Below, in pieces: positions 42,961-43,472 of a stretch of 64,000 nt of DNA (position 1 is its first letter; each line of letters starts with the position of its first letter). This DNA is from Bacteroidia bacterium (GTDB lineage: Bacteria > Bacteroidota > Bacteroidia > SpSt-205), in the NCBI GenBank assembly GCA_025059535.1, contig JANXCX010000011.1:62001-126000 (forward strand). The letters run 5' to 3'. The position numbers were made by a program, and so were the translations under genes. The notes beneath the pieces are model-generated. The model ran no database searches. It had not been told where the DNA came from and was given only the letters and a program-made list of their open reading frames with translations.

Positions 42961-42968
42961 TACCTTTG
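42961..42968 (+). promoter_or_regulatory. TAnnTTTG promoter element for the tRNA
   Basis: TACCTTTG, 7 bases before the mature tRNA 5' end at 42976. It calibrates the others: transcription must start within these 7 bases or at 42976 for the tRNA to be complete. Confidence 0.8.
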
Positions 42969-42975
42969 TGGAAGC

Positions 42976-43048
42976 GGGCCTGTAGCTCAGCGGTTAGAGC
43001 AGCGGACTCATAATCCGTTGGTCGGGGGTTCGAATCCCTCCGGGCCCA
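42976..43048 (+). tRNA. tRNA with anticodon CAT, probably tRNA-Ile2 (lysidine type)
   Basis: A 73-base cloverleaf: acceptor GGGCCTG pairs with CGGGCCC (one T-G), D arm GCTC/GAGC, anticodon stem GCGGA/TCCGT with loop CTCATAA, variable region TGGTC, T arm GGGGG/CCCTC with TTCGAAT, and discriminator A at 43048. CCA is not encoded (the next bases are C then GTG). Anticodon CAT could be initiator Met, elongator Met or Ile2. The ACTCATAATC loop context and the absence of initiator-type GGG pairs in the anticodon stem favour Ile2, read after conversion of C34 to lysidine by TilS. Confidence 0.9.
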
Positions 43049-43049
43049 C

Positions 43050-43472
43050 GTGGAGGTAAAGCTCCGATGGACGGGTGCGGGGCTCCACTTTTTAGCGCAG
43101 GCGGAAAGTGGCCACACCACCGCTTACGACTCACCTGTAGAAGTAGGGGGTACAGACCAAGCGATGCGGCCTATGGAAGGACTCCTCAGTGCCATGGTAG
43201 CCTGCTTTGCGGCGGATGTGGTAAGTATCCTACAAAAAAAGCGCTGCGAGATTCGCCAATTTCAGGTGCAGGCTACGGCTGAGCGCCGCCCCGACTTCCC
43301 GCGCGTCTTTACCAAGGCTCACCTCCAAGTAGAAATAGAAAGCCCTAACGCCAAACCCGCCGACATAGAGCGCAGCATTGAGCTTTCCCGCACTAAGTAC
43401 TGTAGCGCCATGGCCATGTTTGCCGCGGCGGGCTGCGAGATAGTAATTGACTATACCCTTCGCACGAGCTGA
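43050..43472 (+). CDS. OsmC/Ohr-family protein
   Basis: A 140-residue OsmC-family protein, thiol-dependent peroxidases for organic hydroperoxides in well-studied members. Both expected cysteines are present, in AMVACFAADVV (near residue 51) and RTKYCSAMAMF (near 113), and GGTDQAMRPMEGLL matches the family N-terminal half. The start GTG at 43050 lies two bases after the tRNA discriminator base, with no promoter between, so the mRNA is probably released by tRNA 3' processing. A Fur-family gene is divergent on the other side, which may hint at oxidative-stress linkage. It overlaps the next gene by one base. Confidence 0.85.
   Translation: MEVKLRWTGAGLHFLAQAESGHTTAYDSPVEVGGTDQAMRPMEGLLSAMVACFAADVVSILQKKRCEIRQFQVQATAERRPDFPRVFTKAHLQVEIESPNAKPADIERSIELSRTKYCSAMAMFAAAGCEIVIDYTLRTS

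Follow-up and report, generated by a model that had tools for sequence, protein, structure and literature searches.

A start codon directly behind a tRNA: candidate tRNA punctuation at osmC and other genes of a thermophilic Bacteroidia lineage

What makes the 5' end of an mRNA whose start codon lies directly behind a tRNA gene? The question is raised by a 64,000-nucleotide stretch of a Bacteroidia genome (GenBank assembly GCA_025059535.1, contig JANXCX010000011.1; hereafter the window), in which an OsmC-family gene begins one base after a tRNA. A sequence-only reading of this DNA had suggested that the protein is translated from the tail of the pre-tRNA, its level being tied to the tRNA promoter and to 3' processing, and that a divergent Fur-type gene might place both directions under stress control. 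Here we examine both suggestions in the window, in its genome and in related genomes.

The junction between tRNA-Ile2 and osmC

Discriminator A43048, a single C and the GTG of an OsmC-family gene can be read directly in the sequence, as first described (Table 1); CCA is not encoded. ARAGORN labels the tRNA as tRNA-Met, an assignment we rejected. By sequence it is tRNA-Ile2, whose C34 is converted to lysidine: it carries a CAU anticodon, is distinct from the initiator and elongator Met tRNAs, and is accompanied by an encoded TilS, which is present in 11 of 11 genomes. It is one of three CAT tRNAs and the sole gene of its type among the 43 tRNAs of the genome.

Table 1. Features of the tRNA-osmC locus, in window coordinates.
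Feature	Position	Strand	Evidence or remark
fur-family regulator	42447-42929	-	divergent; ATG 42929, 4 nt after its own box
Box of fur, TACATTTG	42934-42941	-	4 nt before ATG 42929
Bacteroidota sigma-A -7 box, TACCTTTG	42961-42968	+	read directly, just upstream of tRNA-Ile2
tRNA-Ile2 (CAU)	42976-43048	+	Rfam RF00005, 74.7 bits; ARAGORN
In-frame TAA in anticodon loop	43011-43013	+	sequence
C43049, C74 of tRNA-Ile2	43049	+	sole base separating tRNA from start codon; RNase Z cut predicted before or after it
osmC/YhfA-like gene, GTG start, 140 aa	43050-43472	+	PF02566; start position kept in relatives
NAD-dependent epimerase-like gene	43472-44479	+	start overlaps osmC stop (TGATG)

Could the single C be a selected spacer? 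A C follows the discriminator in 42/43, 43/44, 28/28 and 32/32 tRNAs of four genomes, the outgroup among them. C43049 is thus position 74 of the tRNA itself, a conserved base, which reduces the true spacer to zero; as tRNAs throughout the class carry C74, we rejected a selected spacer.

GTG43050 stands as the true start. Because the anticodon loop holds an in-frame TAA and no in-frame ATG, GTG or TTG lies between it and position 43050, any other start would truncate OsmC; the same TAA excludes an upstream in-frame start within the tRNA as well as fusion by read-through. From residue 1 onward the protein aligns with the N-terminus of E. coli 1ml8 and with ten relatives. It matches PF02566 (2.3e-17; 63.7 bits against a cut-off of 27.5) and shares with the OsmC/YhfA family (E. 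coli 1ml8, T. maritima 1vla) the fold family, the N-terminus and both conserved cysteines, C52 and C118, which are invariant in the alignment of family orthologues. It scores below the cut-off of the PRK10738 equivalog (83.2 versus 138 bits). On these profile matches we assign the protein to the OsmC family and, given the PRK10738 score, do not assert YhfA orthology.

One nucleotide between tRNA and reading frame leaves no room for a leader or a promoter. Within 40 nt before the osmC start no TAnnTTTG box exceeded 4/6 matches, and at promoter spacing the best reached 3/6, which bears out the earlier statement that the tRNA contains no promoter element. From the sigma-A box upstream of the tRNA, transcription is predicted to start at about 42973, which would give the tRNA a 3-nt leader. 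To judge from the overlap of stop and start codons, the NAD-epimerase-like gene is probably part of the osmC transcript. It opens a run of genes (43472-45780) that continues with ThiS-like and FAD-oxidase (ThiO-like) open reading frames, the latter two named by eye; all of them may be driven by the tRNA promoter, a dependence that would be confined to this species.

The suggested link to Fur was not supported. The distance of 20 bases given for the Fur-type gene separates only the two divergent promoter boxes (about 20 bp), whereas the fur start codon (ATG 42929 or TTG 42932) lies 43-46 bp from tRNA-Ile2. Shared control by Fur was rejected, fur being absent from the tRNA-osmC flanks (up to 3 kb) of all ten relatives examined. 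The fur mRNA itself is predicted to be leaderless.

Close tRNA-gene junctions in relatives and across genomes

Is the junction a peculiarity of one genome? The relatives are hot-spring Bacteroidia metagenome genomes (e.g. KatS3mg025, KatS3mg026). One osmC orthologue occurs in each of 10 genus genomes and in one sister-genus genome, and the same tRNA lies directly upstream in all 11. Within the genus the spacer is one C in 8/10, with single cases of 14 nt and of 69 nt (L011); in the sister genus it consists of three C. The start codon differs among relatives (ATG, GTG or TTG) at a constant position. In L011, a new box has appeared within the 69 nt at exactly 4 nt before the ATG; read this way, the start codon is set at an RNA end either by a promoter or by a tRNA. 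DNA 5' of the tRNA has diverged in the relatives and could not be aligned by eye, and tblastn found no homologues of fur, the NAD-epimerase, thiS or thiO beside the pair (flanks up to 3 kb). The pair is therefore kept while its surroundings differ, as the sequence-only reading had asked of a functional arrangement. No tRNA was found near more distant OsmC homologues.

We then took a census of tRNA genes from RF00005 positions, their surrounding stretches and crude gene calls, covering all 43 tRNAs of the window's genome (G000), a closed genus genome (G005), a member of the same order (G012) and a class outgroup (G052, 30 of its 50 tRNAs), so that the controls are one class outgroup and one order relative. 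Among unit-terminal tRNAs, a protein start lies within 11 nt of the discriminator in 18/33 cases in G000, 11/34 in G005, 8/25 in G012 and 0/26 in G052 (G000 versus G052, Fisher p 1.8e-6). Eleven abutting pairs, with similar gaps, are common to G000 and G005; 11 of the 18 pairs of G000 thus recur. Most of the genomes are metagenome assemblies; independent assemblies and the closed genome nonetheless repeat the pattern. Terminator-like hairpins follow 19/26 unit-terminal tRNAs in G052, 7/33 in G000 and 3/34 in G005. Sigma-A boxes precede 29 of 32 first-in-unit tRNAs, mostly 4-13 nt upstream.

Which genes stand behind tRNAs? Many have basic housekeeping roles. Confirmed by protein family and N-terminus, they include (gap in nt) dxr (1, with a TTG start), prs (5), tig (3), rplY (2), fbp (1), ligA (9), secE (3), rsmE (5) and genes for a DUF2480 protein (1), a PhoD-like protein (3) and a multihaem cytochrome-like protein (1), among others; the N-termini of Dxr and Prs match solved homologues. 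Three pairs were traced across the genus. tRNA-Val(CAC)-C-TTG-dxr is identical in 10/10 genus genomes (L255-L262, L264, L281). The tRNA-Gln-prs gap is 4-5 nt, its letters changing, in 9/9 genus genomes and in G011, and the tRNA-Leu(TAG)-tig gap is 1-3 nt in 9/10 genus genomes and in G011. In class outgroups the latter two pairs are often still adjacent, usually 11-100 nt apart, and several of these gaps hold terminator-like hairpins. The close junction is hence most simply read as the derived state of both pairs.

Non-ATG starts are commoner behind tRNAs (9/18) than among promoter-driven starts 4 nt after a box (9/45; p about 0.03), a difference that is only suggestive; such starts could tone down the output of strong tRNA promoters. 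TTG is also common at tig and is absent from the 45 promoter-driven starts. The fixed TTG at dxr may be under selection, either as a weak start or through a base preference of RNase Z.

Promoter geometry and a predicted leaderless background

How do ordinary mRNAs of this clade begin? In 464 kb with 376 crude gene calls, the distance from TAnnTTTG to the start codon peaks sharply at 4 nt (43 of the 124 genes with a box in range; 93 of 124 at 3-8 nt). Eight control motifs gave no such peak, which is seen also in G005 and not in G052 or G047. The starts 4 nt after a box (n = 45) comprise 36 ATG and 9 GTG. Further cases in the window are the starts at 4320, 7534, 10953 and 53634 on the forward strand and at 34349 and 23212 on the reverse strand. 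GGAGG occurs in 4 of 376 upstream regions, the lack of Shine-Dalgarno sequences expected of leaderless mRNAs and general to Bacteroidota.

In Flavobacterium the sigma-A box occupies positions -12 to -5 relative to the transcription start (PMC9723704, PMC6847099). Given this distance, a box 4 nt before the start codon corresponds to a leader of zero, and by such a transfer from Flavobacterium the ordinary mRNAs of the clade appear to be mostly leaderless. A genome-wide layout of this kind, as predicted here, would be unusual for Bacteroidota. Published leaders in the phylum are mostly longer: leaderless genes were found to be rare in Bacteroidetes (2.4% in 1 of 37 genomes; PMC3160421), they make up 5.5% in F. 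psychrophilum (PMC9723704), and 3.7% of B. thetaiotaomicron leaders are shorter than 10 nt (PMC7366714).

tRNA punctuation as a proposed mechanism

We consider it likely, from these sequence comparisons, that a form of tRNA punctuation operates in this free-living bacterium: one tRNA promoter would drive tRNA and gene, and RNase Z would release both the tRNA and a leaderless mRNA. At osmC, the sigma-A promoter would initiate transcription about 3 nt before tRNA-Ile2, and the transcript would extend through the gene. RNase P would trim the 5' end of the tRNA, and RNase Z would cut 3' of A73 or of C74, freeing the tRNA for CCA addition together with an mRNA that begins 1 nt (cut after A73) or 0 nt (after C74) before the start codon. 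This predicted osmC leader of 0-1 nt agrees with that predicted genome-wide for other genes, and the mRNA would be translated by the leaderless route that the clade appears to use for most genes. About half of the genome's unit-terminal tRNAs would share the design, including those before dxr, prs, tig, rplY, fbp, ligA and secE; in part, it would have arisen when the terminator, promoter and leader found between tRNA and gene in outgroups were lost.

Since no box was found in tRNA or spacer and terminators are scarce, we infer that osmC is co-transcribed from the tRNA promoter. RNase P RNA is present in all 11 genus genomes and an RNase Z match in 10 of the 11, at 271 bits just below the curated cut-off of 293 (most genus members, 262-288). 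tRNA-Ile2 being single-copy, its 3' end must be matured. The earlier suggestion that OsmC is translated from a pre-tRNA tail, and depends on 3' processing and the tRNA promoter, is thus well supported by inference from the lack of room for a promoter, the genus-wide spacing, the genome-wide recurrence, the encoded RNase Z and the predicted leaderless mRNAs; its Fur and stress part is not. Against punctuation counts the fact that TTG and GTG are poor starts at a leaderless position in E. coli.

Might genome compaction alone account for the junctions? Streamlining could have pushed tRNA and gene together, with read-through co-transcription and an exact junction of no functional importance. The genomes are indeed compact, crude calls giving about 95-97% coding sequence; at this density some short gaps should arise without any function, and several abutting pairs of G000 are not found in G005. 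Yet spacer length has held across large divergence (1 nt at dxr in 10/10 and at osmC in 8/10; 4-5 nt at prs, where the letters change), and the sole long-spacer osmC, that of L011, gained a box at exactly 4 nt. Even under compaction, it would be tRNA maturation that decides where the mRNA begins. We regard compaction alone as an unlikely explanation.

That the uncut tRNA-mRNA is the translated form, some transcripts being entered by ribosomes right beside the folded acceptor stem, seems very improbable. In its favour, though not directly, speaks a predicted fold in which acceptor stem and start region of the uncut RNA pair in a competing structure. Against it, the single-copy tRNA-Ile2 must be cut, the start codon would sit against a stable GC-rich stem, and mRNAs of the clade appear to begin at the start codon. 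Equally hard to credit is an unrecognised promoter of osmC inside the tRNA, for instance for an alternative sigma factor, of which flavobacteria have motifs (PMC9723704); TAnnTTTG reached at most 3/6 at promoter spacing in tRNA or spacer of all 29 abutting cases, an internal promoter of the sigma-A type being rejected on these grounds, and the tRNAs, whose sequence is constrained by their own function, are not alike from pair to pair.

The proposed processing of the tRNA-linked transcripts by RNase Z has a close parallel. tRNA punctuation was reportedly described in animal mitochondria by Ojala, Montoya and Attardi in 1981, with excision by RNase P and ELAC2. There, too, tRNAs abut start codons by 0 to few nt, and an RNase Z-type cut would make the leaderless 5' end in both cases. 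Unlike the mitochondrial case, the present one concerns a free-living bacterium of about 2 Mb with RNase P RNA, numerous individual tRNA promoters in place of a single transcript of genome length, and only part of its genes involved. A search of open-licence papers returned mainly mitochondrial and archaeal work and no report of bacterial tRNA punctuation.

Bacterial tRNA-mRNA operons are known from the thrT-tufB, metY-nusA and tRNA-Trp-secE neighbourhoods. As in operons of the thrT-tufB type, tRNA and protein gene would here share one transcript split by tRNA maturation, but the untranslated leader with ribosome-binding signals that follows the tRNA in such operons is missing. The leaderless mRNAs of mycobacteria, Streptomyces, Deinococcus-Thermus and archaea likewise have an AUG or GUG start at or next to the 5' end, a box at a fixed short distance and no Shine-Dalgarno sequence; their 5' end is the transcription start, whereas that of the tRNA-linked genes would be a processing end.

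On balance we favour the broader view that tRNA excision is a standard maker of mRNA 5' ends in this thermophilic Bacteroidia lineage, so that production of essential proteins (Dxr, Prs, trigger factor, L25, FBPase, LigA, SecE) would depend on tRNA transcription and RNase Z, and weak starts such as the fixed TTG at dxr would tune the output of strong tRNA promoters. If so, a free-living bacterium has independently evolved a gene layout of the mitochondrial kind, in which essential genes cannot be expressed unless a tRNA is matured first. Leaderless translation and genome compaction would reinforce each other: once ribosomes accept a 5'-terminal start codon, any tRNA can supply both the promoter and the 5' end. 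The lineage would be a mainly leaderless one in a phylum where leaderless genes are reported as rare, and it would offer a clear way to test whether bacteria initiate leaderless translation on mRNA ends made by processing (monophosphate ends).

Two further observations concern the tRNA units themselves. At several tRNA promoters of G000 and G005 the box lies only 4 nt before the tRNA 5' end, which predicts tRNAs without a 5' leader; we considered tRNAs of an RNase P-less type for these cases and rejected them, RNase P RNA being present. Tandem tRNAs 1-3 nt apart occur in G000 at C17:1499-1737, C13:15685-15929 and C9:6674-6829, where one cut may serve two tRNA ends.
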